From positions 52,275,802 through 52,339,801 of the forward strand of contig NC_065537.1 of NCBI RefSeq assembly GCF_932294415.1: a stretch of DNA of 64,000 nucleotides, in the 5' to 3' direction. The DNA comes from Quercus robur. Its lineage: Eukaryota > Streptophyta > Magnoliopsida > Fagales > Fagaceae. Each line of letters begins with the position of its first letter. Position 1 is the stretch's first letter. A program made the translations under genes and the position numbers. Below are positions 9,001-64,000 of the stretch, in pieces. The notes under the pieces were generated by a model. The model saw only the letters and a list, made by a program, of their open reading frames with translations, was not told the DNA's origin and searched no databases.

Positions 9001-12000
9001 CTGCAACGGGTAGTGGATTTGTTGGATTGTTGGTCTTGCAATTTCAGGTGACATCGTAATATAATTATATGGAGGATTGTGCCACATTGTTTGATGTGGT
9101 GTATCTGGCGGGAACGGAATTCTAGAAGCTTCTAGGGTCGCGAACGGTCCATTCTTGAGTTTAAGTCTTTTTTCTTTTTTACTCTTCTCAAATAGTGTTT
9201 TGTTTTACCATCTTTTTCTTGTTTTTCCCTTCCTGTGTTGCTTGATCATTGTAATTTGGTTTCCTGATGTTTTTGCCTCATTTGTACATTTCCTATGTAC
9301 TGGATTCTTCTTTTAATAAAATTTTTATGTTACTTATCAAAAAAAAAAAAAAAAAAGATACTACAGGCTCCAACTTCGATCATTTATTAGTCGAACAAAG
9401 CTAACATCCCAGTGGAAAGCATTCTCATAAAATATCAAGTAATTTTCCACTGAAGCGTTGAAGCCTCCTTATTACGCACAATACGAGAACCCACACCCAC
9501 CTCAAAGCTAGTGATGTGATAGAATTTTTCCCACTATATTCTTATATAGGCGGACTCCATAAGACCCATGAACCTTATTGGAACATCAAACTCACATTCT
9601 GCCTTATTTTTGTCCACCACCCGTCTTCAACCCATAAGGCCCATGAACCTTTTTGGAACGCCAACCCCACATTCTGCCATATTTTTGGTCCACCACCTGT
9701 CTCCATAAGACCTCTCTCTCCAAATACCACCAAAGATCCCAAGTAAGACCTGATTGAACAAGACTAAGTCCCTGATGCTTAGCCCCCCAAAATTGAATTG
9801 GTTCACAAACTTTTTCCCAATTTACCTCTCTCTTTTTCTCTAAAATTTTCCATATAGGGCAAAGAGGAGCTACATTTCATAAGACTATTTTTGAAGTTGA
9901 CCAAAGGCAGAAACTATAAAAGACCATAGTTTGCTCCCAAAGGAGTTATATATAGCAACAGATTATCAACTGATTGACTATTAGTATTACACTTACACGT
10001 GCCACACCAATTTACAAGGATAATACGCTACTCCCTCTGTCCCAAATTGTTTGGCCTAGTTAGAAAAACCCAATTATTTAGGGAAACATCATGAACTGCC
10101 TTACCTCTTTAAAAAAAAGTTAGAAATTTCCTAAATTACCCTTAAACAAATTTATCAAAAAATTATTTAAGAAAAAAAAAACATTTCTAGTATTGGCGAA
10201 AACTGCCAAGCAATTTTCAAAGTTATTGTAGATTACAAATTTTATTAGTGTACTACTCTTACAATTTGCAAACCTATATTCAAATCCAAATTCTATAGCC
10301 ACCAAGCCTAATCCAAATTCAGTGGCGCGTTTGTTATCTTGTTGGCATCAGTGGCTTGGGAAACATAATTCAGACATTTGGAATTTGGTTCCAGGGTGCT
10401 TGATGTGGATTGTGTGGTTGGAACGAAATCGTCATTCCTTTGAGGACATTGAGAAGATATTGGATGAGTTAAAGGTTTTATGCTAACGGAGTCTTTTGGA
10501 GTGGTCTCATTGTTGGGGTTTTACTGATTGTTCTTCTATCACTGAGTTTATGCTTTCCCTTAGTTTAGTTTCTTGATTTCTTTTTTTGTTGTTCTGTTTG
10601 TTCTTTATTTTCTTGTTGTTCATCATCATGAACAACTTGTACTTTTCCTTTTTTCTCATTAATAATAGTTTTCTGATTACCTATCAAAAAAAAAAAAGAT
10701 TAGAAACTCTACTGGTGGCAAAACAATAGCTTTAGTGGATTCAAAATTTAGGTTTTTAATTTTTTTTTAATTAAAAAAAATGCTCCCACAAATAAATTAA
10801 GGGCATAAAGGGAATGTAAATAAATTAATGTTGTTTGACTTTTCAAACAGGATATAATTTTGGGACATCCGAAAATGGAATACAGATCAAATAATTTGGG
10901 ACGGAGGGAGTATTTAATAAAATTATCCACAGTTAAAAAGTGCACCCAAAGCCGCTGTCCACACAAAACAAAGCAACATTTTGGGAATTTTACCATACCA
11001 AATACTCTTTCAAGGACATTGCCCCCATAAGATACTCTTAAAGCTTCAGAATAAGAGTGAGCACTGAATTTTCCATTGTGGTTCAACTTCTACAATGAAT
11101 CGTGAAGTTTGCACTGAAATGTTTTTGGCATTTTATTGTCAATGTAAATGATCTTTGTGAATTTAGTTTATACATGACTCTGCCCTCATATGTGTTGATA
11201 AGATCTTGTTTAACATCCTTTTGCCATAACCACTGCCTCTAGGGTGTTGCATTACCCATGTGTCCCTCCAAAGGCCACTTAACCTTTCTAGGTTGTTAAC
11301 CTGATCTCTTTAATTTCTTTCAACTTCTTTATTCTGGTCATTGTAGCGTGCATTTGGCATCAGCTTTTTCATTCAGCTTTTAGACTTTATGCACAGCTTT
11401 TTAAAACCTCACTTTTTTCAAAATACAAGTATATTTTAGCGTACTTTCAGCAAAAAGCTAAGTTAATTGATGCCAAATGCACACGAAGTATGATACATCT
11501 ACTCATTTAGCTGTTTTAAGATACCCTCTTTTAATTGCTTTCTAATTTATCATCCCTTCAATTTATATAAGACATATCAGAGTTCTGCCCTAGCTGTCAA
11601 GCTCCTCTCTCTCTGATCTTCTGTTGGCTGTGGTAAGATTCAAGAATAAAATATGAAGTATATTCAAAGTAAAAACATGACTTGCTAGGCAAGTATGAGA
11701 GGTGCTGTAATCTTTGCAAATTTCTTGTCCACCATCATCATGCTAGTGCGTAAGTTGTCTTAGGAGATGACACATTCAACTTATTTCATGATATTAATTC
11801 CCTTAGTTTTATTCTTTTGACTGGATTGACATATTGAGTTGTTTATCAGCCATGTAGTTAGACCTTTGGATGTTGGTACTGCCCTAATGTTTGTCATTCT
11901 TTGTGAGTATAAGTAGTTGCATGTCTAATTTACTACTTTAAGCGAATGTAGGTCATAAAGGCTCAATCAGCCCTTCGTCAATCTGACAAAACACCGTCAC

Positions 12001-15000
12001 GACGACTTCTTCAGGTCATTGGTATGGATTTTGATAATTTCTTTCTCTGGTATTTTGATATTTCTATTTTTGATATGTTAATCCCAAGGGGTAGCACAAT
12101 TGGCTGGGGACCGTGCCACATGAAGTGGAGATTGTACTTTGAATCTCTCCTTCCCCCTCCCCTTGGGGCCAAAACTTATTAAAATATAAGATATTCCTAT
12201 TTTTGAATGTTAAATGAATTGAAATGTATGGTTTCTACTATCATTCTAAGGCTATGTTTGGAAAAGAATTCGTTATTTACTTGAGGATTTATTGGAAATT
12301 AATTTCAATGCCAATTTCATTTGACAAGAATCACAAGATGCTATTTGGATGACATTGATGTTGCCTTGGTAGTGGTCCTGGTGTGAGCAAGAGAGGGTGG
12401 TTGTAGTCAAAATAAGGCTTCTTCTTTATCTGATGTAGGAAAGCATCAGCAAAGGGCTTTGAGGCTATATTTTAAAAGGTTCCAATGAGCTCTAGCTCAA
12501 ATGACTCCCCTGTAAACACAAGTGTATATCAGTATATGTATGAAATCATCATATGATACCATCAGAACACTTGCGAGTGGGACACACCTTTTTCAGATAT
12601 TATTATTTATATGTTCTTAATACCACATGCTTATACTGTTACGTTAGCTTTTCTTTGCACTTTGGCTCCTCGTATTATTGAACAAAATTTAAAAAGTTGT
12701 TGCTGATACAAATGATAAGACAGTTTGGAAGACTAGGAAGTCCTTTTTTTCCTTTATTTTTTTTATATATTTTTAAAAAATAGTCCTCCAATGAATTTAA
12801 AGCACTTCTGTTTTTCATCACCAATAGTTATTATTGGAATGGTGGCTACTTTTATCGCTACTTGGCTGCGTTATTTCTTTGGCCTACTTAGTCATGTAAA
12901 CCCTATACAATCTAGTTAGATAGTCTAGATTTACTTGGTGTTTCTTTGTGAATATCGCAACAAATTATGGTTCCTCTTATATTTTGCAGGCAAAGATATG
13001 AGAATTATTGTCTTTGGTTTCCGCCCTAGAACGAAGCAGGTAAATTTCACTGTGTTGCTGTTGTATTCAGTTTTCTATGTTTAATGTTCAAACAATGTAG
13101 GCTTCAATATATTTGCATATGTTTTAAAGCTTCTTGTTATGTGTATAGTAAAATTTTGATTATTTATATAATAAGGAATGAGCATAGAATTTGTAAGAGA
13201 TCTCCACAATGGGTTCCTGAAGTGAACATGATTTAATGACATTTTTAAATACAAGTAGGTAGCAGGAAGTAAAGATTCATTAGCTTAGGAAATAATTATT
13301 GGGCTTAAATGTTACCAGATATTTGGGAAGGAACTCCAATGTGTCCCAAAATAATTCTAAATTCTTCTGAATCTAAATCAAATGAATTCCTTAAATTCTA
13401 GAATTTGCCTATGCCTGATAATTTGTCTTGTAACAGTTAATCTTTAAATTGGGAAAAACTTCATTCCACCTGAAAATGTAATTACACCTTTGGTAGTTTG
13501 GTTAGAAAAGTATGCGTGTGGGGGTAATATTGGTAATTTGGTAAAGCGAGTTACTTATCAAAAAAAAATATATATATATATATATATATTGGTAAAGCAA
13601 GTTACAGAAGATGTTAGCTGCAGGTGGATTGGTGTTGACCTAAGGTTATATGTATTGTATTGCTTGTTACAAAAGTAATTGGGAGGTTTATGATTTGCTA
13701 ATTTTAATGCATAAGGAACAGGTGTGTCTAGTTAATCAATGCTTTTCTTTTCTTCTTTGTCTGTACTTGTAATTTTCATTTTTGAGTTATTAATTTATAG
13801 TTTAGAAGAGTTAATTATGCTAGCATATGGCATTGTTCTAAGCCAATTAATATAATTATTCATTAATGTAGAATGCTGTAAGTAGCTTCTTGCATATGGT
13901 ATGATTTTTTAATCTTACAGAGACGTGCAGTATTTGATGCATTACTACGGTGTACTAAGCCAGCAAGCCTATGGGATCTCTACGCTTTTACTTCTGGACC
14001 TTCCAAATTCAAAAATAGTAACCCAAGGGAGCGATTACTAACCGAGTATTTTCGGCTTCTTGGAAAAGGCTCCTTCTGCCCGTCAATGACTACAATTGAG
14101 GATGGGTCATTCACATTTTCCAATGACTTGTGGAGAATAAGTAGCATAAATTCCAATTATGCAATGTGCCAGAGTTATCCATTTGCCTTGATTGTGCCAA
14201 AAGGCATCAGGTTAGAAAGTGTAATCTATACTTTCTGACTTTTGTTCTAAAATTTCCAATGTTAATAAAGTTTACTTCATTTTGATGCTGGAATTGTGCA
14301 TGCAATAACTTTATATGGCTGTTGATGCTAGTGATGAAGAAGTGCTTCAGGCTTCAACCTTTCGTGCAAGATGCCGATTACCTGTAGTTTCCTGGTGTCA
14401 TCCTCGTATGTGACTCATGTTATTTTTGTTGCTTTTGTCATCCTGGTATGTGGCACATCTTATTTTTGTTGCTTTTGTTTGTCATGACTTATGCTTTGCT
14501 ATACATTATGATTTATAGGAAGTGGAGCTGTCCTTGCACGTTCATCTCAACCATTAGTTGGTCTCATGATGAATATGAGGAGGTACAGAAAAGAGGAAAC
14601 ATTGCAGAAAAAATGAGATGTTGTATACATGGTTTTGAAGTGTTAAAATTTTTCTTTTATCCATATGGCTCGTTGAAATTACATGAACTGACTTCTCTGC
14701 ATTTGTCTTCAGCAACACTGATGAAAAGCTTGTAGCTGCACTTTGCACTCAACTTGCTAGTGTGAGGGGGGCTCGGAGGTAGGCTTGTAAAGCTATTCCC
14801 TTTCTGCTATTTATTACTAGCCCCATCGCACACGCATGTTTAGAGGGTTTTTATTTTTTATTTTTTAGTTTTAAATTCCATTACTGTTTGGACATGGAAG
14901 AATTTCAAAAATTTTGGTGGTTATATTTTTATCAACATTTTAAGATATTAGAAGTTACAACTATAAATAAAATATGGGGAAGGAATCAAATATATATAAG

Positions 15001-16473
15001 GGATTTTTAAAATTTGACTATTTTACCCCTTACCATTTTATTTTATTTCAAATTTCTTTTAACTGAAAATCAAAATACCTTTTTTGTCCTAAATTTGTGT
15101 TTTTGAGATAGTCAATTTGAAGAGTTTCTATTTAAGAAGTCTATCAAAATAATTCTTCCATCTCTCCTTAATCTCACTTCCTTTACAAACAATTTTTTTT
15201 CTTCATCTTTAATGTGCTTGAGACAATTCAAGTCTCTTGCTTTCCTTTCCTTTGCCTTAGGAAGTTCATAGATATTCTTTTCATCATCCTTCATCCCCAA
15301 ATTGCTTTATAATTCATTGTATCCTTAAATCTAGCCTTTGGGACCACCTTTTTTAATTTCCTCTTTGCTATTTTATAATTTTCATAATCAACATTGTCTC
15401 TACGTTTGGGCAGGTTTCTATGGCTCTCTCTATAATCTAACTTTTGCTTGAGCCTCCTCATTCCACCACCATGTCTTCTTAATCAGTAGCTTACATTGTT
15501 AGATTCTACAAGTACTTCCTTTCACACTCCTTTAATACAACTAGCCATTTCATTCCACATCTCATCAAAATCTTAATCGGGGCCTTACTTGTCTTTTTTG
15601 ATTATTTCATCTTTAAACACAACTTATTTCTCTCCCTGCAAACCCTACCATCTAATCCTTGGGTTTCTCTGTCTACTATCTCTTCTTTTCATCTTTCAAC
15701 ACCAAATATCTAGTACCACCAACATATCTTGAGTGGTTGCGCTCTCTCTTAGTATTATTACTTTGCAATCTTTACAAATTCTACTATCAACTTTACAAGT
15801 AAGGATGAAATCTATTTGGCTAATGTTTGTCCCACTTTTTGAAGATAATAATTGAATACCTCTTCTTGAACTAAGTGATTTTTAAGATCATATCATATGC
15901 CATTGTGAAGTCTAAAATATCATCTCTTGACTCATTCCTTGCTCCATATCCCTGCCTACATCAACCCTTTCAAATCCCCTATTCTCTTTTCTGACAGGAC
16001 CATTTAGGTTTCCTCCATTAGTCTTTTTCCCATTTGACAACTCTTGAATCAATTTATTCATGTACTCCCAATTATCAAAAAAGAAAAACATTCATGTACT
16101 CCCAAAATTTTTGCTTGATGGATTCTTTCAACCCTATTTGAGTAGCATGTGCACTAATTATGTTAATTGTCTCTTCTCCTAAAACAAGAGTTATTGATGA
16201 AATTCTATCCTTTATTTTCCTAACATCAACAACTTATTCTTGAAGAATATATATCTATGATTATGCCTACCCCATTTTTATTTTAATATTTTCCTATATA
16301 CCATAGCTTATATCCTGTTTGTTCAACTTCTCTTAATTTCTCATCTTTCTATGGTATGCAAATATATATATATTATTCTACTTTATATTTATATAAAAAA
16401 GATTATTAATCATAGTTGTCCACACTTGCTGCTAATTTAGGTAATTTTCTTTGAAACTCTGTGTCACTTTTTT

Positions 16474-16515
<42 letters not shown>

Positions 16516-19500
16516 CAGGAAGCTATATATTGCTGATGCAAGACCAAGGAAAAATGCTTTAGCAAATGGGGCCATGGGAGGTGGCTCAGAGTCATCCTCA
16601 AATTATTTTCAATCTGAGGTCTGTTTATGGTTTAAACTGTCATTTATTAATATCTTGGCCATAAACTTGATGTCTTATTATTTGACTGTCTCATTTTCCT
16701 TTGTGTTTTTTTTTTTATCAGATAGTTTTCTTTGGGATAGACAACATACATGCGATGAGGGATAGTCTTGCTCGACTTAGGGACTACTTAGACACTCATG
16801 GCGCTACTTCTTCAGATGGAATGTCATCATTCTTGGTTAGTTCAGAGTCTTATATAGATCTGGCTGCTTATCAGTGATACACTATATTAATTAATTAGTT
16901 TGTTGGGAACTGAAGTACATTTCCTGAGATATGAAATGATGTTACTGCAAGTATTATATGATTTCTATTCTCTTTAGTTTTGTGAATGTCAATATTGAAG
17001 CAAGACAATATGGTCAAAATTTGAAAGTTGACCTTGGAATTTGCATTGCAGCTTAGAAGGTGTGGTTCTTTACATCTTCAAAGTCATAAAAACTAACACA
17101 GCTGTGAAACTTTTCCTTGCAATAATATATGGTAGATAATTACTTTCATAATGCTGTGTTTTTATGATCCACTGTTATTTCCCTTTCATGTAAGGTTGAC
17201 TAAAACTTTATATTTCTTTAACAAGTAGTGATAACACTGGCTCAGATTAAACTTTTGGGGTTCCTTTTAAGTCAATGCATAGTGTCCATTAAGCCTAGCT
17301 TACTTATGATTTCATGCGTGTGAGCCAATTTTGAAAGTGTTTCTGAAGTCTAAAAGTCCTAAAATGTTCTCAAGGCACCTTATATTGCTTTTACCTATCA
17401 ATTTTTTTTTTTTTTATTGTTCTCAGGGCCTGCAAAGTGGGGATAATCTCAGAATTCATTTTTGTTGAGTTTTTTATGGGTGTTATTTTGTGCATTTTTA
17501 ATCAACTTCTAAAATGTCTTGTTTGTAATGGGTGAGAGCCTCTGATACTAATACTATTGACAGAGACATGGTGGATGGACTTGGGGTGGAGGCAACCTGA
17601 GCAGTATGTCTGCTTCAGTATCAACCCTTGGTGACAGTGGTTGGTTAATACATGTTCAGAATGTCTTGGCTGGTTCGGCTTGGATTGCTGCACGTGTTGC
17701 TTTGGAATCGGCATCAGTGCTTGTGCATTGCAGGTTATAACACTTTTAGTTAATCATTGTGACAATTAAACAGAGATCATTCAATTTGTTGATTACATGA
17801 GGCCAATGAGCTATAGCTCAAATGACACCTCGGGTTGTGCCGTGGTGGGTGAGGTTACAGATTCAAGATCGGTTAGGTGTGTGTGTAACTTACTAATAAA
17901 AAAAAAAATGTTGACTGCATATGAAGTTTGCAGTCAACTTTCTGTAATCTTCTACGTTTTAGCCTTCTCTATTTTTGCTGGTTTAGAATCTATATTTTCT
18001 GTTGTTTTGTGTAGTGATGGATGGGATAGAACAACTCAGTTGGTTTCACTTGCTAGTCTGCTGCTTGATCCATACTATCGGACATTCACAGGGTTTCAGG
18101 TATTAGCTGAATATTAGTGGACTATGTCCTTTATTTTTTTAGAGTAATAGGATTCTACTAAAAAAACAGAAGGGATTAACCTTTGGACACATTTGTGTGT
18201 GTTTGACAACCGATTATAAGTTAGCTTTTTTGCTTAAATTATCCAATATTTGCAGGTTCCACATTACTTTTGTCTTAGCTTTATTTGAAGTAATATAAGT
18301 TTCAGCTTTTTAAAAATAAGCTAGCTTTTTGTCTCACATGTGGGTTCCAATTAGTTCAACTGGTAAAGTCTCTTCTCCTCGAATAGGAGGTCTGGGATTC
18401 ATTCTCCGTATACTCCAAAAAACCAATTGGAGTCTCACAGTATGCTAATAAGCTACTGAAAATAAGCAATTCCACAAGAGATAGAAATAAGGAAAAAAGC
18501 CACACCCAAAAAAAAAAAAAAAAAATTACAGCCATTTAAACAATGCCAAGGTGAAACAACAAATCCCTCAAATCACTCCGACCCAATCAAAATGATTTAA
18601 ATTTAAATAATGATACTTCAGCTCTATCAAAAGTCTTTAAAAATTCTCTTCCTCTTCCACATCAAGCACAAGGGCATAACAATTCATACATCACTACTTT
18701 GATGCCTATTAAAGCTGCCTTTTGAACATGCTAAAAACTCTCACTGAATTAAGCATAGCCAAGAGATTCTGATAAGGAGAAAACTAATAACTGAACTTCC
18801 TAGCAACAATATACTGAAGAAGAATGTGATTAATTCTCTCTCCACTTACTTTTCACATATGGCACCAATCAACAAAGATTCTCTTACACATATGTTAGCC
18901 ATTGTTAAGATTTTTACCTTGGGCCACCGTCCAAGTTTAAAAAGCTACTTTTGTTGGAACCTTTGCCTTATAAACAGTGTTTCATGGGAAATCAGCCATC
19001 TAATCTCCTTGCAAAGACCTAAATAATCTCACAGTAAGGCCACTTTTGTTTCAGTGTAAAAATTTTTCTATGCTTAAAGATGTTTGGTTCAACTGAAAAT
19101 GTTAGTCTACAGAAAATGTTTCCTTGGCCAATGGAAAATTACACCAAATGATTTCTGGGAAAAGCCTTGATTTCATCTCCACCCTCCTTACCCCTTGCAA
19201 TTCCTCTATGCTGCTACAACCACTCCTCTCCTCCATCACTGATAGCCATTGTTACCCACTTGCCCATTGTTGCTAGGACAGTCCCTGCTGCCCATTGGCA
19301 CTAGCTCCCACTTGCCTGCCTCTGTTAACAACCAATTGCTAGCCATCGCCACCACCAATGTTGAGCCATTGCCTAACACTCGTCTGCTGCTGCCTGGCCA
19401 CCGCCACCCCCCCATCACTAACTTCAGGTCAGCACTGATTGCTGGCCTTTACCATCTCTATTGACCACTCCCTGTCTGTTGTCGCCACTGTCATTGTTAC

Positions 19501-20794
19501 CTGCTACTATTGCACTTTCTTTCCAACCGCCACCACCGGCAAAAATTTTCAGTGCAATCAAATGCTAAAAAATTATTTTCCAGGTTATAACCAAACAATA
19601 AAAATCATTTTCCTCTTCTGAAGATATTTTCTGTAGGAAAACATTTTAGGTCGAAACCAACAGAGCCCGAAGTTCTGCATTTTAAAACAATTTCCAGCCC
19701 TACCTACCCTACCCATCCCTCATTCCTTAATTTCAGGCCGCATAATGCCATAAAAATTATCAATGTATTCAAGCTCCAAACCTACAGTGCCTGTTAAGTC
19801 TATGTATATACTACGTATAGTACATCCTTATCCGCTGCAATGTTAAACAATTTAGGGAAAAGGAGTTTCAAGGGCACCTCTCTACACCATAAATCTTGTT
19901 AAAATCAGATGCAATTTCCATCCCTAACATTAAATGTTCTAATGTGCTTCCACAAACTTACCTCCAACCACATCTTTCTCCCCAACTGGAACCAAGTTTC
20001 TCTTACCCAAGTTCTTCTTTGAACCTAAGACTGAAGTAACTGGTGTGACTTATAAATTTTGTTTCTTTTTATCTTTATCCAGGCACTTGTGGAGAAAGAT
20101 TGGCTGGGATTTGGTCATCCATTTTCAGATAGAATAGGCATGCCAACAGTATCTGGTAGTTGTAATGTTCCTTATGAGTTAACTAGGCAGACTTCTACAG
20201 GGAGCTTTTCAACATCACCTATGCGCCAGCCATCAGGATCATTTACATCTCAGGGTCCAAGTTCAACTCATGCACAGACTTCAAACAACTATTCCCCCAT
20301 ATTTATGCAGGTATGTACCTTGATCATTTATTTAGGGAAAACATACTCACATCCTTTCACAAGGCTGAGTCACTAGCAATTATGTTACTGCTGCTTCTCA
20401 TGTCATTGGTGTTGGCATCAAAAAATATTGATTAGTGCTTTTTACAGGCCCTGCATTAAGCCCAAAAACTAGGGCTAGGTGCAGAAATGGCTGCTGAACC
20501 CTAACCAGCCCTGGTTGTGACTAAATGGTCTAGGCAAGATTGACAGGGGGCTGCAAACCTCAATGTTTACCATTCTATTGTTGTTAATGCATTGTATATT
20601 TTTATTGGCAGAGAAGTAGGGGCCTTATTCAGGCCTCAATAAACCCTGCCAATTCCCAAAATAGTTAATAATGCTTAAAAGGGGTTGCCTAGGACCTGGA
20701 AAGACCCCAGTAAGCCCTGAACTGAGACTAAAAAGTTCAGATGGACTCCAAATGAGCTAGCAATGCAGGGAGTGGCAAGCCTTTAACTCTCCAA

Positions 20795-30556: not shown

Positions 30557-32794
30557 ATGGACTTGTCATTGCTTCTTCTCAAGGTCATGGTCACAATTGC
30601 GCTGCTTGGCTTTTTTAGCAAGCTAATACAGATTTGTGATGCTCTAATATTGAAGCCAGAAAGGCTTAGATCAAAACTGCGAAAGCAAGGGATCAGAGGC
30701 CCTCCACCCTCGTTTTTGCTCGGAAACATCAATGACATGAAGAAGATGAAATCCACGGCCTCAAAAACTCAACCAGGAGAGCAAGCATTAACCCACAATT
30801 GCGCTTCTGCAATTTTTCCTTTCTTAGACCTATGGAAAAAACAATATGGTAATTAAGAACATCAATCTTAGTACATGATTTTTTAAGTTTCAATTCTCAT
30901 ATAGTTGAATTATCAGAAAGGTTTTTCATTTATTTATTTTTTAACTGCTTTTGTTATTCTAATTCTGACAGGTTCTACGTTCATGTTCTCACTTGGCAAC
31001 ATACAAATATTGCACACGAACCATCTTGATGTGGTAAGGGCAATAAGCATATGCACTTCCTTAGACTTTGGAAAGCCTTCCTATCAATACAAAGAGCGAG
31101 GTCCTCTATTTGGCCAAGGGATTCTGACTTCAAATGGAGCACCATGGGCTTACCAAAGGAAAATCCTTGCTCCAGAACTATACATGGAAAAGGTCAAGGT
31201 ATGCTTCAAATCAAATATATATCTTTTTAGTACGAGAATCAACCTTTCCAAACACAAAAATAAAAAAGATAAGATTTTCTATCAATTATCTCTCTAAACA
31301 AACCCCCACAAACTTTTAACGACATATGTTCAATCAAGATATAAGTTTTGATCATACCTATTTTCTTAATAATAGTCCTTCTATTCCCAGCTTCTGATTA
31401 GTAAAAATATAGTGACTGGATACTGGTGCAATTTGTAGGGTATGATGAGCATAATGGTGGAGTCCTCAATTACACTAGTGAACTCATGGACTAATCTGAT
31501 TGAGAGTGAGGGTGGAGTTGCAGATGTTCACGTTGATAAATATATGAGAAGCCTTTCTGGAGATGTGATCTCAAGAGCTTGTTTTGGCAGCGATTACTCT
31601 AAAGGGGAAGAGATGTTTTCAAAGCTTGATGTACTTCAAGAGCACCTGTCTAAAAAGGTTTTTTCCAGTGGCATTCCTGTACTAAGGTTTGATTTTTATT
31701 TATTTATTTATTTTTTTGTCCCTACATAAAGCATTTTTTATATCATTATAATTACCTTCGTTTGTGGGTGTCACAATTTTCAGACATCTTCCAACAAAGA
31801 GCAAAAGAGAAACAAGGAGGCTAGAAAAAGAGGTCCACTCTTTGATTATGCAGGTAGTGAAGGAAAGAAAGGAGGGACCATCACAGAATGATTTGCTGCA
31901 AGTGGTACTTGAAGGTGCAAACAATACTGATTTTGGTCAAGATAAGACTGGTCGCTTCATTGTTGACAATTGCAAGAACATATACCAAGCTGCGTATGAG
32001 ACAACTGCAGTGTGTGCAACATGGACCTTGATGCTGTTGGCCTCAAATCCAGAGTGGCAACAACGAGTTCGTACTGAAGTCCTTGAAATTTGTGCTGATC
32101 AGATGCCTGACGCTGACATGGTTCGCAAGATGAAGACAGTAAGTATATATATTGATTTCTGTGAGTAATGTAAAAGACACAATTTTCACTACTTTTTTTT
32201 TGCACATCGTTAGTTGAACACTACAAGACGGTAAGTATACATATTTACACATAGAGTCGTAGGATGAACTTTAGATGTCGCCGTTAGGAAATACTAGGAG
32301 ATGTTAAGATCCACCCAACATTTTGTCAACTACTCACCAATCTTTGCTTGGTTTAATGAATTTGACAGTTGACTATGGTAATTTACGAATCATTGCGACT
32401 TTACCCTCCAGTGCCAGTGGTGACAAGGGAGGCATTTGAAGACATGAAATTTGGAGACATAAACGTACCTAAAGGTGTAATTGTGTGGACCATGATAGTA
32501 GCCTTACAACAAGACCCTGATCTTTGGGGACCCGATGCCAACATCTTCAACCCCGAAAGGTTTGCCAATGGTGTCAGTGGTGCATGCAAGCTTCCTTACG
32601 TGTACATGCCATTTGGAGTTGGACCTCGCATCTGTGCTGGGCAACACTTTGCCATGGCAGAGCTCAAAATTCTTATATCTTTGATTGTGTCCAACTTCTC
32701 CTTTTCCTTGTCACCCATATACAGGCACTCCCCGGCAATGAAGTTGCTTTTAGAGCCTGAACATGGTGTCAATATTCTTATTAAGAAGCTCTGA
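30557..32794 (+). CDS. Cytochrome P450, CYP714-like, five exons, 515 aa
   Basis: A haem-thiolate monooxygenase anchored in the ER membrane by an N-terminal hydrophobic helix (residues about 3-22). Exons: 30557-30848, 30972-31198, 31439-31686, 31784-32138, 32369-32794; all introns are GT-AG and the frame stays open to TGA. Motifs: [17 protein letters not shown] (proline hinge), AAYETT in the I helix (325-330), ExxR as ESLR (381-384), PERF (436-439), and the haem loop [10 protein letters not shown] with Cys463. Length and motifs are complete, so it looks functional. LRKQGIRGP and the intron pattern point to clan 72, CYP714. Known CYP714 enzymes oxidise gibberellins (16,17-epoxidation, C-13 or C-16 oxidation) or, in some subfamilies, triterpenoids. 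The substrate here cannot be told from sequence. It stands alone, with transposons on both sides. Confidence 0.93.

Positions 32795-35539: not shown

Positions 35540-35552
<13 letters not shown>

Positions 35553-35585
<33 letters not shown>
35553..35585. repeat. (GA)n microsatellite next to a (GT)n run
   Basis: GT units at 35539-35552 pass into about 16 GA units. Confidence 0.95.
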
Positions 35586-35690: not shown

Positions 35691-35885
35691 GACACGTGGC
35701 GCAAAATTAGACTCTAATTGAATTCCAATTTGAAATCTAATTTGATTTTCTCTCAATTTTGCATATATGTGTATGTGTGTATGTGTGTGTGACACGTAGT
35801 GCAAAATTATACTATAATTGAATTCCAATTTGAAATCTAATTGGATTTTCTCTTAATTTTGCCTATATATTTTGCGCCACACGTC
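35691..35885. repeat. 100-bp tandem duplication with inverted outer ends
   Basis: GACACGTGGCGCAAAATTA (35691) and GACACGTAGTGCAAAATTA (35791) start two copies that share TGAATTCCAATTTGAAATCT. The right edge TTTGCGCCACACGTC (35871-35885) is the inverse of the left start. The structure resembles an internally duplicated miniature element. No target duplication was found. Confidence 0.7.
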
Positions 35886-35899
35886 TCTCTCTCTCTCTA

Positions 35900-35938
<39 letters not shown>
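35900..35938. repeat. (CA)n microsatellite
   Basis: About 19 CA units lie just before the Mutator-like element. Confidence 0.95.
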
Positions 35939-35944
<6 letters not shown>

Positions 35945-36281
35945 ATTTTGAAGTGGAGGGTTCAAGATTGCTTATTATTTCATAAAGGGGTAATTCAACA
36001 TAACCCACCTGTGGTTTGGGCGAAAATCACTTTGTCTACCCGTGGTTTGAAAAGTATCACTTAACCCACCTGTGGTATGTTTTGTTTATTTTCTGTAACC
36101 CACCTCTGTTAAAATCATGGGTAAATAGGTATTTTTGCTCAAATTTTATGTCTCTCTCCTCCCAAAACAAAAAAATAGTGAAAAAATGTGAGAGAAACAA
36201 GATCAAAAGGTGGTATTTGTCTCTCTGTCCATTCACACAAATTTTGAAAATGAAGAACATACCCAAAAAAAAATAAAAAGC

Positions 36282-36540
36282 CTAAGCCCCATTGCCTCCC
36301 TCAACCCTTTGGCTAACTCCATCACAAACTCCAAAGGCGGCATTCCACCTCCTCCACAAGCTTATCCATTTCAGAGGACCATCCCTTCCCTTCAGCCACA
36401 CTTCTTCAATCGAATCCATAAGATTCTCCGACTCATCCAACATTCTCTGATTTGGAACCCCAAACGTTTGGTCCCCTTGAGGGATTTTCAAGCCAATAAC
36501 CACATCGAGCATGGAGATTCGATTGTGGAGACGCTTGATG
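36282..36540 (-). pseudogene. Captured coding-like fragment, unidentified
   Basis: The minus strand from about 36560 to 36282 is open and reads SPESIKRLHNRISML, DQTFGVPNQRMLDESENLMD, WRRWNAAFGVCDGVSQRVEG. Its composition and lack of low-complexity sequence look like genuine protein-coding DNA, but the gene was not recognised. It starts next to the left inverted repeat and has no intron. It may be a fragment of a host gene picked up by the element. The plus strand is also open here but reads less like a protein. Confidence 0.5.
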
Positions 36541-36573
36541 GATTCAGGAGAGTCGATTACGACGATGTGAATA

Positions 36574-36606
<33 letters not shown>

Positions 36607-36695
36607 CTTGCAATTTGTGTGGAGGATGTGTATCTTCTTTTGTTGTTTTTGCTTGCTCATTTTTATATATATTATTTTCTGGGTTTGTTATGTAG

Positions 36696-36827
36696 TTTGA
36701 GGTTGCTTGGGCACTTACAAACAATGCATCAGCAACTTCGGAGAACGCGAAGGTGGTGATTAACCATGGAGCAGTTCCGATCTTTGTTAAGTTACTGGGT
36801 TCTTCTAGTGATGATGTTAGGGAGCAG
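36696..36827 (+). pseudogene. Captured importin-alpha exon (one armadillo-repeat segment)
   Basis: Exactly 44 codons lie between an acceptor (TATGTAG, ending 36695) and a donor (GTATAT, from 36828). The peptide begins [20 protein letters not shown] and ends [13 protein letters not shown]. Importin-alpha, the nuclear-import receptor, has [35 protein letters not shown] at the same place. The exon is intact with both splice signals, but no neighbouring importin exons are present, so it cannot make an importin. It could be spliced into a chimeric transcript if the element is transcribed. Confidence 0.88.
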
Positions 36828-37190
36828 GTATATATCGGAATGAATGAATTTTTCTAATTTTTTAAAGCATAGGTTGTGTATTGTTTGAGGCTCTATCTAA
36901 GCCCTCGTGGAACCTATGTATTTGTGTTTAATTTTTTTGGGTATGTTCTTCATGTTCAAAATTTGTGTGAATGGAGAGAGAGACAAATACTACTTTTTGA
37001 TCTTGTTTCTCTTGCATTTTTGCTCTATTTTTTGTTTTGGGAGGAGAGAGACATAAAATTTGAGCAAAAATACCTATTTACTCCTGATTTTAACAGAGGT
37101 GGGTTAAGTGATACTTTTCAAACCATGGGTAGACAAAGTGATTTTCGCCCAAACCATAGGTGGGTTTAGTGTAATTACCCATTTCATAAA

Positions 37191-38984
37191 AGTTAAAAAT
37201 TAAAAGTATTTATTTTGCTTAAAGGTCTATGACTTGACTTAAAAAAATGTATAACTTGAAAATGAATGAAAATAAGTAATTTTTTTGTTCAATATAATGG
37301 TTTAGAAAAATTCTTTTTCTTTCATATCATTGGTTCTACATAACACATCCCGGCATGGGCTATTCTATGTTGATGACTTCACACAATATTCAACTGCAAT
37401 TAAATTTACTATCCACCACCAATCTAATCTATGTTATCTTGATAGTAGATCTACAAATTGTATTCTCATATCCTTCATCATTTAGAAGGTAACTGAAGTA
37501 ATGATTGTATGTAATGTATAACTTTTATTCTTTTAATGTTTTGGAAATTTTTTGAAATAGAATTTTAAACTTCTTAAAACTTAGTTAATAGAGTTTCTAT
37601 TTTACCTAAAAGTGAACTATCACAATTAATGAGAATTTAATGATTTTTTGCAAAGAGAAGATAACCATAGGCCCAATTTTTACTTTATAGCATAGGATGT
37701 TACAGTTAGATCCGTACCATGTGTAGTACGTTAATCCATTATGATAGTTCTAAATAATATCCTAATACCTATCTATATGAGTTTTCTTTTTAATGATGCC
37801 ATAAAGGATGGAGTTTAATAGAAGTCATTTAAGATCCAACATATCCAATAATTTTTTTTTTAAAAAAAATGTAATTTCAAAAGTCTTTTTATTGTAAATT
37901 TTTTTAATCATAAAATAGACTATATCTAAACTCTAAAGAAAAGCATTCGGAATGATCACATCATTGATACCATATCATGATGGTTGCAAATAGCAATATT
38001 ATTATTCATGATTAATAGATAAACAATGAAACTGTGAATTAACTATTTAACAATTCAAATACCAAGTTTAAACTACAACAACACATATACAAAAGCCTCC
38101 AAATATTGGAACATATTTCTTCTGCCATTTTCATTATTCAATCAAAACCAAAGTTTCAAATATAATTCCAATTCAATTAAACCCAATACATACATACACA
38201 TTAATGTAAAGAATTCCAAAAATAAAAACAACAATCTCCAAAAGCCTCTATCTAATACAGTCACTATATATTTATTTATTTATTCAAATTGTGCATTCTT
38301 TAGTTATTTTTCCTTTTATGTTTCATTTAACTTTTTCTAATTGACCAAAATATTTCTCATATATGTTAACATTAAACCTGATAAGAAAACTTTACATACC
38401 TTTTGTTTTGAAGGCACTCCAAGAACCAAAATCAATGCAAGAGACTGTAATATAATCTCAAAAAAAAAAAAAAAACTATTTAAAATATGATATAGGAATG
38501 AAAAGCCGAGTTGAAATTGTAACAAATAATCCCTAAAAAAAAACTATTTATAATATAATATAGGGTTATGGATTCCTAATCAAATTTGGCTATATAATTT
38601 TTTTTTAAAGGATGAATATGTTGGTAGAGTCCATTTGATATAAAATTTAAATCCTATTGAAATTAAAAATGATATATATTTGTTGAGTCTCGTTTGATAT
38701 AATTATAGAGTTTAAATCCTATTGAAATTATAATATCTAATCAAAATTAATATATAAAAAATGAAAAAAAGAAGAGAAAGAAAACGTGATTGATAGATAT
38801 AAAGAAATACGATAGATTTTTTTTTTTTTAAATGTCAACAATGTAGAAATTATCAAATTAATGGAGATATATTCTGTTTTTTGGGATAAATTTATATTAA
38901 TGAAGTTATTATATAGCTTGTTAGGATTATCTAAAAATTCCCTTGATTAAGTTTTTAGGCAAGAAGACATGGATGGAAAATAGC
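37191..38984. other. Intergenic AT-rich region
   Basis: Nothing coding was recognised. Near 38630-38730 an imperfect duplication repeats GAGTCNNGTTTGATATAA..TTTAAATCCTATTGAAATTA. The remainder is AT-rich spacer. Confidence 0.5.
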
Positions 38985-39049
38985 CTAACAATCAGGGGCG
39001 TAGCCAGGAATAAATACTTGGGGGGGCCGGGCGTAGCTACTTTGTCATT

Positions 39050-39802
39050 GAAAGTTGATGTGAATTTTATCAATTCAATAAAATTACCTCTTTTTTTTGA
39101 ATCAAGGCTTTCATCATGACCTCTAAAAGCACAAACTTGGAATGCTAGCCATCGAGCACACTCTATTGAGGTTTTGAGCCGCAACCGATTATTCTCTAAT
39201 TCTTTTGACGTTTGTTTCTCAATTAGCTTGTCAATATGTCGTGAATAATTCTTTAAATCCTTGCAACATTTCACAGCAATTTTATGTGGGGAGTTTGGTT
39301 CTTTCCCTACATGACGAATTAAAGGACAATTCATTCCATCTTTCACCTTTTTCCAATTATTAAAACCTGTTGAAATGAATGCATCTGATCTGGGACGATC
39401 TATTGGTTTCTTACTAAAAAGGTAGCAAGGTAGACAATATATCGCATCCATTGAAGGTGAGTATTCCAACCAATCCTTATGTGAATCAAACCATGAAGGT
39501 TGAAATCAACGACGATGAGTATCATTATTGTATGGATAGTCTATATTTTTAGGTTGATATGGACCTTCTATGAGATAAGCTCGTCGGATTTCATCTTGTT
39601 TGTTGATAGGAAATTCACATATTTGTTTACGTGATCCTGGATCACGATCTATCTCTTCAAATTGAAGTTTTGGACATTTGGAGGGGTGTTCATTAGACAT
39701 TGAAGTATTAACATTTGTTTTTACAGCCACAGGTGTCCTAATTTCTGAATTGCTAACATTTTTTTTCTTAAAGAATGCATCAATTGTTTTTCGTTTGCTC
39801 AT
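39050..39802 (-). pseudogene. N-terminal fragment of a hAT transposase (TTF-type zinc finger)
   Basis: The start MSKRKTIDAFFKKK is typical of zinc-finger MYM-type / TTF-type hAT transposases. After an in-frame TGA at 39506-39508 the same frame continues FQPSWFDSHKDWLEYSPSMD, then IYCLPCYLFSKK (zinc-binding Cys pair), GFNNWKKVKDG and RWLAFQVCAFRGHDES. Homology ends at about 39050, beside the element's left end. About 240 residues remain, against roughly 700-800 in complete relatives (from memory). The DDE/RNase-H-like core is missing. Confidence 0.85.
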
Positions 39803-58299: not shown

Positions 58300-60785
58300 A
58301 TGATGAACATCATTATTTGGAATTGTAGAGGGGCACTAAAGCCCTCCTTTCAGTCAAGTGTGCGTGATCTAGTTGCCAACCACGATCCAGCTATACTCGT
58401 GGTTATGGAGACTCGCATTGGTAGTGATAAAGCTAAGGATATTACTGATAGACTTCCTTTTCAGGGAGCGCTCTTTATTGATTCTATCGGCTCAAAGTAT
58501 TGTGTCACTACAGTCTCTACTTCGATCCTATTTAATGGTGGTGCTCTTGAACCTTTCCTTCCATCAAGGGGCATATGGCAAAGGGACCCATTATCCCCTT
58601 ACCTCTTCATCCTCTGCATGGAAGTTCTTGGTAGAATTATAGAGGATAAATGCAATAACAAGTACTAGAATCCAGTGAAAGCCTCCAAGAGTGGTCCGGC
58701 ATTCTCTCACATTTTCTTTGCCGATGACCTCCTACTGTTTGCTAAGGCGAACCAGCAAAACTGTGAGAGCGTAAGGGAAGCTTTAGATGAATTTTGTATG
58801 GTTTCGGGCCAAAAAATCAACCCCACCAAATCCAAAGTTTATTTTTCTCCTAATATAGATGGAGATCAAAGAATTGAATTTTGTGAGACTCTTGGTTTTC
58901 ATTCTACTCCCAAGCTGGGAGCTTACCTAGGTTTTCCCCTTAGACATGCCGGAGCGTCGAACCAAGATCTAAACTTTGTTCTGGATCGGGTAAATCAGAA
59001 GCTAGCTGGTTGGAAAGCCAACCTTCTGTCGTTTGCTGGCCGAAAAGTTCTTATCCAAGCCTCTGTTAGTGCTGTCCCCACTTATGTGATGCAGACCACC
59101 TACCTCCCAAGCAAAATCTTGGATAATCTAGATAGACTTAACAGAAACTTCCTATGGGGAACTAGTGATTCTGAGAGAAGGATGCACTGGGTGGGATGGG
59201 AGAAAATCACACAACCTATGGAGAAGGGTGGTCTTGGCCTTCAAACAGCAAAAGGCAGAAATTTGGCTTATCTCTCCAAGCTTAATTGGAGATTTCACTC
59301 AGAAAAGGACTCACTTTGGGCTCAAGTCATCAGGAAAAAGTACATGTCTCCTAGAAGAATCGCCTCTAGCAATGAAGATTCCTTCCCTAGCTCTCGGACT
59401 TGGAAGGCTATGAAGAAGGGTATGGAAGTGTTCAAGAGGGGAACGAGATGGAGTCTTGGCCGAGAAAGCAGTCTGAAGTTTTGGCACGATAACTGGACAT
59501 CGAATGGCCCCTTGAGATCTACCATTCATGGCCCGCTTACTAGGGAGGAAGATGAGATCAAAGTTAGAGATATTGCTTTGTTGGATGGTTGGGATTGGGA
59601 GAAACTTTCTATGGTTCTTCCAACAAAATCTGTCTAGAAATTCAAGCGATGCCCCGATTTCATGTGGCTAATGAGGATGACAGAATAATTTGGGATGCTT
59701 CTTCCAATGGAGAGTTCAACCTCAATAGTGCATATACCCTTGCCAATGGGGAAGCTCCTTAATTTTTTAATGGTAAGTGGATTTGGAAGTTAAAGGTACT
59801 GCTAAGAATTCAATTCTTTATTTGGATGTGCCTCCATAACAGCATTGCAACTCGGGAAAGGTTAGTCTCTAGAGGTTTGCAAATGTCCTTGCTTTGCCCT
59901 CTCTGTAATTCCTATCCTGAGACCATCGTCCATCTGTTGAGGAACTGTCACGTAGCTGCAAACTGCTGGCAGAACCTTGGTATAGGGGTCTGCACTCCTG
60001 AGTTTTACTCCATGAGCCTTCCAATTTGGCTGGAAAATAACTGTAAATCTATAAAAACCTCCAACCATCTTCAAATTCCTTGGAGCACAATATTTGCATT
60101 TGGGATATGGACTATTTGGAACCATCGTAACAGTGTGGTATTTAAAAACAAACCAATCAGCCACTCCATTCACAAGGAGATTATTCACAGAGCAGTAGAG
60201 TATTCTTTTATTGCTCAAAACTTCTCAAATTGCAAGCTTCGAATTGAAAGAAGCATTCGATGGGAGAGGCCTAATAGAGGCTGGCATAAGCTAAACACGG
60301 ATGGATCTTCCCTAGGCAATCCTGATTTGGCTAGTGGAGGGGGTATTCTGCGAAATGAGGTGGGTGGTTGGATAAGAGCGTTCATTAGGAAGATTGGTAT
60401 AACCACCAGCTTTGTGGCTGAGCTCTGGGCGCTTAGGGATGGCCTTAGCATGTGTGTGGATATGCAGATTCCAGCTCTTGAAGTTGAATTAGACGCTAAA
60501 GTGGTCGCTGACTTGATGAACAGTTTGAATGCTAATTTCGCGGCCATTGTGGCTGACTGCAGGCAGCTCTTATCTCAAATTCCCCAAGTTAAAGTCTCCC
60601 ATTGTTACCGAGAAGCAAATCGTTGCGCCGATGCCCTCGCAAGACTAGGCTGCACTACATCTCTGAATGTTATGTTTTTCAATTTCCCCCCCCCCCCTAG
60701 TATTTTGAATGTTTTTCTTTCTGATTTATATGGTCTGACTCAGATCAAATTCTGTCCTGTAATTGACACTCCTATTTCTGTTTAA
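58300..60785 (+). pseudogene. LINE ORF2 relic: partial endonuclease, partial reverse transcriptase, zf-RVT, RNase H
   Basis: It starts MMNIIIWNCRGALKPSF (endonuclease beginning, WNCRG). Endonuclease sequence ends near 58498 and is followed directly by late reverse-transcriptase sequence (RDPLSPYLFILCMEVLG), so roughly 450 codons are missing. After a TAG at 58666-58668 the frame continues to FFADDLLLFAKA at about 58714-58749. A frameshift lies near 59620-59650 and a TAA at 59760-59762. The zf-RVT block (CPLCNSYPETIVHLLRNC) and an RNase H domain (NTDGSSLGNP, VAELWALRDG, REANRCADALARLG) complete it. Not functional. Confidence 0.9.
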
Positions 60786-61587: not shown

Positions 61588-64000
61588 TCATTTACCAAGA
61601 AAATTCATGTGAGCATCATAATTATTTGTTATGTCACCCAAAGGAACTTGTGCTTGATCAAACCCAACATCTATTCCCTGCAAGAAATTATAATGATTTT
61701 GTGTCATCTATGTCATTGCATAAAAGAATATGCCACTTGTTAATAACTTAAAAAAGCTGAATGAACAAGTTCACCGTTAATGATTCAATGAAATTGTTTT
61801 GGCATCCATTTCCTTGGAGACCTTCATATGTCATCCATGCCATTGAATTAGGTGCCTGATCAGTTTCCTATATCACAAATCACAAATAGTTCTCGTTAAA
61901 ACTTTCAGATTTTTAGCAATAAAAATTCTTTAAAATTGCTTACCTACAAACTCACAAGATTGCTCACCTTATGTGAATAGCATTGCACAGGTGAGATAGA
62001 GTTATTGTAATTTATGAGAGAAGAGTTATTGTTTTCCTGTATGGTAAGATATAAGGAATTAGTTTAACCAAGAATAAAAAAATAAACTGTTTGTACACAA
62101 TGCATGTAAATTTGTCAATATTTTTTGCATCAAGAGCCTACCTTGGATAATTGTTGTCTAACAGTATCTTTTGTTGAAGTTTTTATCTTTCTCCTTGATT
62201 GTTGTTCAACCCAACTTTTACATCTTTTTCAACCCTTACAACCTTCTTTCTTTTTGAGGCCTTTAACCTTTTCAATTAAATTCTTTATAGGTTCTCCATG
62301 ATCCACAATTTCACTACCACCCAATGACATTTGATCTTTAGAATTATCAAGACTCACACATGAAAATTTCATGGCAATATCTTCAACTTGCTTTTCTAAT
62401 TCCTTTGTAACACTCTCTACCAAAGCATATGCTTCTTCGATTTCAGCAGCTCGTGAGGCTAATCTAACTAACCTGGGACATAATCTTCTATACCGTTGTG
62501 TAACTTTTAAGTTAACATCCCCATTGACATCCTTCCCAATACTATCTATGACATACCCATTTTTTGCTTCTCTTGTCCATCTCTTCAAAATGTAAGCATC
62601 GGGAATTATCTTTATATCAAGTATGTCGAAAACCTTCAAAGCATGACAACACAAAATCCCAAATGTTTCAAACTTCCTACAACTGCATGAGATTGTCCTA
62701 CTAATAGGACTACACAATACTTTATATTCTCCAACTTTCTCAAGAAGCACAACAGTATATTCATGCATTGGCTGGCTACAATTCCGATCTTTTATTATTG
62801 CAGCTGATGCATAGTCATACTCATTTTGGAACACTTTAAATATTGTAGGGGTATACACCTGTGATGCTTGCTTCAATAAAGGTGAATTCTTCAAGCACAA
62901 AGGAGGCAATTTTTCCCTAGCATTATACTCAGCCTCTAACTCTTTATCCCGCTTCTACCCTACTACCATCTCAAAATGCTCAAAAAAATCATCCATATTC
63001 AAATTTGATTTCAAGTAATCTTTCAAATCCCCATTCAAACTTTCACTAAGCTGAGCACTTCGCATTCCCAAAGTAACTGCCCTCTTCATGTAACAGTTAG
63101 CCCATTTTTCCTTCAATTTGTATATACCATTTAACCAACTAAGATCCTTAATTGTATAGGTCTGAATCATTTTATTCCAAGCTTCTTCAAATTCACTCTC
63201 ATTCTCATACTTATACATGCAATCTTTAAAGTCTCGGAGGAACAATGAGCCATCCTTCATCAAATTTCCCAATTTCTTGATTCCATTTTGCATTATGTGC
63301 CAAGTACATAATCCATGCCATGTTTCCGACAACACCTCAGCTAATGCCTTTGCAATAGCAAAATCTTGATCAGTAAAGATAGATTTAGGCTTTCTACCAC
63401 CATGTGCTTTTAAAAAACTCTCAAAAATCCATTTGAATGATTCAGCTGTCTCATCGTATAAAAGTGCAGCCCCAAAAATCACCATCTCTCTATGGTGATT
63501 GAAACCAATAAACACAGCTAAAGGTCTAAATTCTTTGTTTGTGCCAAATGTAGTGTCAAAACTAAAAACATCACCAAAATGGGCATAATCAATTATCATT
63601 TTAGCATCAGCCCAAAATATATTAGTTATTTGCTCCTCGATATCCAACTGTACAACATAATGGAACGATGGATTATGAATCAATTGTTGTTGAAAATACC
63701 TTAATAAACTACCGGCTTCACCATATATCAAGCTTCGTTGTCGTCTAGTTCGAAGATAGTTTTTTTTATCAATTCCAGTGTAGCCAAGATTAGCCCTTCC
63801 ACCAGCCTCTCTACTCATTAACTCATGTATCTCCTTAGGCTTAATTCCAGAAGCATAAGCTAAATCAATAGCAAAAGCTTGGACATCAGACATCTTTCGT
63901 TTTGATCGCATCATGAAAGTAGTTGCTGCAAGATGAAGAACATGGTTGTGCTCTAATACAAAATCGTACACCTTGTACTTTCCGGTCTCACGAACTAATG
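61588..64000 (-). pseudogene. FAR1/FHY3-related (FRS) protein, four exons, two in-frame stops, 5' end outside window
   Basis: FRS proteins are transcription factors descended from Mutator-like transposases; FHY3/FAR1 act in far-red light signalling. Exons (minus): 64000-62142, 62036-61968, 61855-61775, 61677-61588, all with GT-AG introns in phase 0. Visible order: end of the FAR1 DNA-binding domain (LVRETGKYKVYDF, LEHNH), MULE transposase domain (FSFDTTFGTNKEF, GFNHHREMVIFGAALL, FTDQDFAIAKA, CTWHIMQN), SWIM zinc finger (CSCRKFETFGILCCH), and a C-terminal exon ending AHMNFLGK. Stops break exon 1: TAG at 62955-62957 (after HFEMVVG) and TGA at 62229-62231 (after KKKEGCKG). Reading frame and splice sites are otherwise intact. 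It is either a young pseudogene or two sequencing errors in a real gene; an intact transposase-derived mobile copy is also possible. Confidence 0.85.

Follow-up and report, generated by a model that had tools for sequence, protein, structure and literature searches.

The window analysed here is a 64,000-nucleotide stretch of the Quercus robur genome (contig C4, 52275802-52339801), and the genome searched comprises 785.7 Mb in 42 contigs. A myotubularin-like phosphatase gene (13882-20376, + strand, at least four open reading frames (ORFs)) and cytochrome P450 exons in different frames, of a gene or a pseudogene (30905-32794, + strand), lie upstream, on the same strand, of the element described below. 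Just to the left of this element, inverted TG/AG and TC/CA microsatellites (35540-35585 and 35884-35930) enclose two 81-bp direct repeats that are 90% identical and lie 100 bp apart. A DUF4371 fragment (38927-39505, - strand, E 3.1e-21) is found 1.7 kb downstream of the element; DUF4371 is typical of hAT elements. Two other stretches, one with RVT_1 and zf-RVT (7298-9051, + strand) and one with zf-RVT and RVT_3 (59763-60785, + strand), are presumably LINE-like, and a FAR1/MuDR-like gene or transposase occupies the window edge (62229-63998, - strand; MULE E 2.4e-25, SWIM E 3.3e-7). The sequence at 35977-37190, with its body at 35987-37180, is a complete non-autonomous transposon, a chimeric Pack-MULE carrying pieces of two genes. 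Its features are as follows.

35977-35986, no strand: left target-site duplication (TSD) ATTTCATAAA, 10/10 identical to 37181-37190
35987-36278, + strand: left terminal inverted repeat (TIR), 292 bp, starting with GGGGTAATT and pairing with the right arm
36279-36568, - strand: captured inositol-tetrakisphosphate 1-kinase (ITPK) fragment, out of frame, with an internal deletion of ~285 bp at about 36390-36400
36279-36329, no strand: ITPK scar, the part adjoining the inverted end, found wholly or in part at this junction in further elements too
36577-36606, no strand: T-run joining the ITPK and importin fragments, read from the sequence; the T-run of the parent intron is shorter here
36610-36926, + strand: captured importin-alpha fragment, reaching from the end of intron 3 through exon 4 and most of intron 4, identical to the C6 gene at 303/317 sites
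36696-36827, + strand: importin-alpha exon of 44 codons, beginning and ending between codons, with both splice sites intact
36935-37180, - strand: right TIR, 246 bp, without a 34-bp block of the left arm
37181-37190, no strand: right TSD ATTTCATAAA, 10/10 identical to 35977-35986

The two TIR arms are identical at 241 of 259 aligned positions. In the accessible part of PMC3310237, such elements are described with TSDs of 9-11 bp and TIRs typically of 100-500 bp; the window element has a 10/10 duplication and arms of 292 and 246 bp, and its host-gene fragments have an importin-alpha parent on C6 and ITPK gene copies on C38. By accounting of fragments, the interior (36279-36934) consists of the two captured pieces, the T-run and a few joining bases, and is on that basis free of transposase. 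The element is non-coding and an ordinary member of the Pack-MULE class, and it is the relatives that are informative; the target duplications demonstrate past transposition only. The initial annotation had proposed a Pack-MULE with inverted repeats of about 250-290 bp, a 9-10 bp duplication and an importin-alpha exon. The repeats and the duplication are as it described, and its class assignment agrees with the TSD, the TIR family, the gene cargo and the MuDR-type transposase of relatives. Its description of the cargo was right for the exon and overlooked both the second cargo, ITPK, and the repeated change of cargo within the family.

The importin cargo can be traced to a parent. Outside the element, the closest matches to 36280-36930 are at C6:44395520-44395859 (93%) and C35:45201585-45201907 (94%), and the next importin-like places, on C3, reach 77% and 72% over ~140-155 bp. 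Since a parent on C6 and a transposed copy on C35 both match at 93-94% across more than 320 bp, the importin match is not due to chance. Six exons of the C6 gene were read, all open and in sequence, and exon 4 is the one captured. The gene is recognisable as importin alpha from its protein and from the Arm match of that exon. The capture ends in intron 4, 7 bases before exon 5. Because intron sequence is kept, the fragment was captured as DNA, and retroposition, which was also considered, is ruled out. The exon has no stop, is preceded by AG (36694-36695) and is followed by GT (36828-36829). The 12 bases on the acceptor side (TTATGTAG in the window, TTGTGTAG in the parent) differ at one base, and the 12 on the donor side differ at one as well, at +9; further up the intron, 5 bp of the parent are absent from the window copy. 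The exon matches Pfam Arm (E 3.2e-9), and among PDB sequences it is matched best by designed proteins of many Armadillo repeats, followed by natural importins, of which importin alpha-1a chains (2yns, 4b8j and others) match over all 44 residues. Thus, both the intact 44-codon exon and its copying from a genomic importin locus, as first proposed, are borne out, the C6 parent being far closer than any distant homologue.

The comparison of non-synonymous and synonymous change in the 44 codons, suggested at the outset, gave no sign of selection. Relative to the C6 gene, the window exon has 6 non-synonymous changes (over 100.5 sites) and 1 synonymous change (over 31.5 sites), and the C35 copy has 2 of each. 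The six amino-acid changes among the 44 residues all fall where the gene and the C35 copy agree. Purifying selection was not seen between the window exon and the C6 gene, a comparison of weak power with its 7 changes. These data fit an exon that would be a passenger evolving without detectable constraint, although 7 changes give little power.

The second cargo, which lies antisense to the + strand, matches a sister element on C4 (C4:26780492-26782064) at 94.6% over 168 bp and 95.7% over 117 bp (93-96% in the genome search), and the C38 gene copy L010, an open frame of 373 codons, at 91.0% over 167 bp and 84.7% over 118 bp. In the C4 sister, Pfam recognises the ITPK sequence as Ins134_P3_kin (PF05770, E 1.6e-40) together with the N-terminal domain (E 4.6e-24). 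The window fragment at first resembled two exons joined without their intron, as in a spliced (processed) capture. This was ruled out by alignment with four clustered gene copies on C38, in which ~285 bp of coding sequence, not an intron, is absent from the window copy; the join has an overlap of 5 bp. The frame shifts after this join and once more before the end. The larger distance of the ITPK fragment to its parent suggests that it may have been captured before importin, bearing in mind that genes differ in rate.

Each of the two fragments shares its outer junction with another, unlinked element. The C35 sister (L017:3299-4811; TSD 9/9) carries the importin capture of the window element, down to the outer junction, together with a pectinesterase piece (E 1.2e-6) that lacks ~420 bp relative to the C6 copies (a deletion or an intron). 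It is located between two glycosyl hydrolase 17 gene pieces (E 2e-18 and 2.3e-26), and its importin exon is in the sense direction of this interrupted gene. The C4 sister (L009:3493-5065; TSD 9 bp, one mismatch) shares the ITPK capture and its outer junction with the window element and combines them with an X8 domain (E 4.5e-9).

Used as a query against the genome, the left TIR returned at least 41 matches, itself included, at 87-100% identity (40 of 1664 first-look candidates were scored). The inverted repeats are therefore common to other copies, the left end having at least 40 further matches, which again speaks against chance. A search with a second type of end, T2, yielded end pairs 5.5-6.3 kb apart. 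Two of these were read, L067 on C3 (6569 bp, TSD 9/9) and L068 on C38 (5737 bp, TSD 8/8, or 10 with one mismatch), and the outer ~120 bp of their ends are 82-89% identical to the window left end, the inner TIR not being in common. Both contain pieces of a MuDR-type transposase in separate, broken frames: DBD_Tnp_Mut (E 9.1e-10 and 1.9e-8), MULE (E 2.6e-6; sub-threshold at 0.0089 in L068) and SWIM (E 1.5e-9 and 1.2e-11). Because these ~6-kb relatives hold such pieces and share the outer ~120 bp, the TIR family is a MULE family; an intact autonomous partner was not seen between the two. The gene at 62229-63998 was considered as a partner and set aside, since no family end lies elsewhere in the window, although the gene runs to the window edge and this check covers only its near side. 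Ten MULE-domain loci with 1.5-kb flanks likewise had no family end, which says little.

Thirty elements were read whole, namely the window, C4 and C35 elements and 27 others, all of them left-TIR matches and hence not a fair sample. The places read covered 38 of the 41 matches (those at C5:49.94 Mb, C38:48.09 Mb and C37:13.19 Mb were left out), and L040 was excluded for having no second end within its 3.3 kb. In 29/30 elements (all but L062, which has only 8 bp with one mismatch), the TSD measures 9 bp or more and has no more than one mismatch, and a few of these TSDs could be chance, as small shifts and one mismatch were permitted in AT-rich flanks; 13/30 are listed as perfect. Shared interior sequence links 25/30 elements. 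L039 and L045 (C38:44.77 and 44.91 Mb) have the same TSD and interiors 98.9% alike, and probably go back to a single insertion that was duplicated later along with its locus, not to two. A domain scan of ten more interior ORFs recognised a longer X8 fragment in L035 (E 5.5e-15) and gave weak matches, below the curated cut-off, in four (L049 Arm, L064 TAXi_N, L059 and L046) and none in five. In L051 (34-701), two family TIRs lie ~370 bp apart in the same direction, resembling the multiple-TIR MULEs described in the part of PMC3310237 available to us.

Single-linkage BLAST grouping of the 160 bp inside the TIR, with no shuffled control, sorted the 60 ends of the 30 elements into 17 types in 16 pairings, 6 of the 17 having at least two partner types. 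T1, the type with the ITPK scar, has six partners including itself, T2 and T3 have four each, and T4, T5 and T7 two each; the C4 end with X8 (T8) was kept separate from those of L035/L054 (T5) despite their common X8 fragment. The ITPK scar (a 21-base motif with at most 3 errors) is present on 16/60 ends and in 13/30 elements, on both ends of L039, L045 and L048. It looks as if ITPK joins the TIR at the same base in its elements, while the length of ITPK that follows ranges from about 20 to 790 bp, with depths of roughly 25, 35-40, 45-50, 115 (window, before its deletion) and ~790 bp (C4). Not every ITPK piece sits at a TIR, since L050 has an extra 34-bp piece at 495-528 from its other end. 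In the search with 36280-36930, a 34-bp exact ITPK piece (query 8-41) was found at no fewer than 19 places, L050 among them, so that the scar extends beyond the 30 elements read; at least 8 of these places have a T/A-run piece listed alongside.

To link the window, C4 and C35 elements, their six TIRs were compared alone; the outcome was almost star-like, and a tree of the 42 of 60 ends that are of the full type was more informative (the 18 ends of other types, mainly T2, were left out). On it, the scar label requires 5 changes against a mean of 12.9 after shuffling, with 0 of 500 shuffles as low, a result to which near-copies contribute. Several end types group across elements, the right end of L047 with L052_R, L053_R, L056_L, L057_L and L058_L, and its left end with L057_R and L058_R, both groups being starred. 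On the other hand, the ends with the scar do not form one clade, L036_R (T5) stands with the right end of the C4 element, apart from L035_R and L054_R, and the two ends of L046 are nearest kin (97/76), although the left is typed T3. The window right TIR lies beside the importin-side TIR of C35 with support of 91/83, below the star level of the tool; by plain identity it is closest to L036_R (95%), and the left TIR is closest to the right TIR of its own element (93%). Inheritance of an end together with its cargo, followed by re-pairing, would fit part of the family well and may also apply to the window element.

Taken together, these observations lead us to regard the window element, with a probability of roughly 0.87, as a non-autonomous chimeric Pack-MULE in which an ITPK-bearing and an importin-bearing end were joined, with importin captured once and its exon a passenger. 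An ancestor would have captured part of an ITPK gene, and a family member would later have taken up the importin-alpha stretch from intron 3 through exon 4 into intron 4 once, as DNA, each capture perhaps occurring during repair of element DNA by template switching at short homologies. The two ends may then have come together by template switching in repair, by recombination between elements, or because two neighbouring elements each contributed an end, and the product would have inserted at its present site with transposase supplied in trans. Both captures are common to other elements, and the ITPK junction shared by the C4 element and others supports this reading. Against this reading stand the split transposase of both coding relatives, which have only the outer ~120 bp in common with the window, the sub-star 91/83 branch and the likeness of the left TIR to its own partner, and a dN/dS that depends on 7 changes. 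As to the single capture, of 317 aligned sites the window copy and the C35 copy each depart from the gene at 14, and from one another at 18. The two copies agree against the gene in 5 substitutions and 2 indels, as well as in the 3' junction, and each has 9 substitutions of its own. The simplest reading is one capture with two descendants, although one of the indels lies in a T-run and the shared changes could stem from an unseen allele or a lost gene duplicate. Independent capture in the window and C35 elements would account for their different inner (5') edges, but it is very improbable given the same outer junction, the shared changes and the placement of the importin-side TIRs together with moderate support.

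For the family as a whole, we tentatively propose, at odds slightly short of even, a kit of interchangeable end cassettes, in which the TIR and the first tens to hundreds of captured bases would be inherited jointly and re-paired. Scars would record one capture after another, and re-pairing, not only fresh capture, would unite pieces of genes at different loci. The same combinations might instead arise from deletions in one long ancestral array of cargo, or from loss of cargo down to the TIR followed by fresh capture. Internal deletion does occur, as in the ~285 bp of ITPK and possibly the ~420 bp of the C35 pectinesterase, and the kinship of the two L046 TIRs is as expected without re-pairing. 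Yet an internal deletion leaves both ends unchanged, and T2, whose TIR has only ~120 bp in common, stands opposite four other types, which makes this alternative unlikely.

The initial annotation further suggested that the exon could be spliced into a chimeric transcript or give rise to small RNAs against the parent gene. Such effects of the window element, chimeric splicing or silencing, are possible, but the functional inference is so far unsupported: the exon changes are 6:1, ITPK is out of frame and the nearest recognised gene exon (P450, ending at 32794) is 3.2 kb upstream. A transcript through the element might splice in the 44 codons, which approximate one Armadillo repeat framed by codon boundaries and retain acceptor, donor and reading frame; joining of Pack-TYPE exons to host exons in maize and rice is described in the accessible text of PMC8903248. 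It is, however, hardly to be expected here: no gene with the element in its intron was recognised among the 29 of 69 listed window ORFs scanned plus one at the edge, DUF4371 follows downstream, and six of the 44 residues are changed where gene and sister copy agree. Somewhat in favour of a role as a small-RNA source acting on importin or ITPK genes, through read-through transcripts with pairing inverted ends, the C6 gene contains exact matches to 81 of the 305 21-mers in the importin part (for the exon, 16 of 112), and 7, 40 and 31 of 270 21-mers of the ITPK part occur in the C38 stretches L010, L011 and L012, respectively. The inverted ends also pair in a predicted RNA fold that had no shuffled control, and small RNAs from Pack-MULEs are mentioned in the part of PMC8277862 consulted; such pairing, however, is expected of any element of this kind, and the role is quite unlikely. 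Most likely, the exon is without consequence to the plant.

The element resembles the Pack-MULEs known from rice and other plants (Jiang et al. 2004, as cited in the accessible part of the review PMC13317346) in its MULE ends, 9-11 bp TSD and host-gene fragments, and in having copies at several loci; the pair of cargoes, ITPK and importin alpha, is particular to it, with no difference of kind. In the tomato PM-ZIBP family, too, a captured piece is common to many copies, and acquired sequence can join extended TIRs, to judge from the available portion of PMC3310237, as does the scar on both ends of L039, L045 and L048. In contrast to PM-ZIBP and extra-TIR MULEs, the main pattern here is that of different partners for each end, and tandem TIRs were noticed only in L051. 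Animal Pack-TIRs, for which gap-filling and fork-stalling (FoSTeST) models are described in the accessible sections of PMC8277862, likewise have captured filler and short-overlap joins, which correspond here to the 5 bp at the ITPK deletion and the T/A-runs beside end joins; unlike them, this is a plant MULE family with several rounds of cargo change. Among the literature matches listed, no title concerned re-pairing of MULE ends, which we do not claim to be unreported, and those listed for the 11-base TIR string concerned animal, human or other unrelated subjects.

Chimeric splicing would be better sought at the C35 site (C35:45.20 Mb) than in the window. According to the accessible text of PMC3310237, the mechanism by which MULEs acquire sequence is not yet understood, and that of PMC8277862 says likewise of capture and combination. 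The present family bears on how MULEs acquire and combine host-gene pieces, and the same junctions with different partners could, by sequence comparison, separate template switching, recombination between elements and the use of mixed ends.
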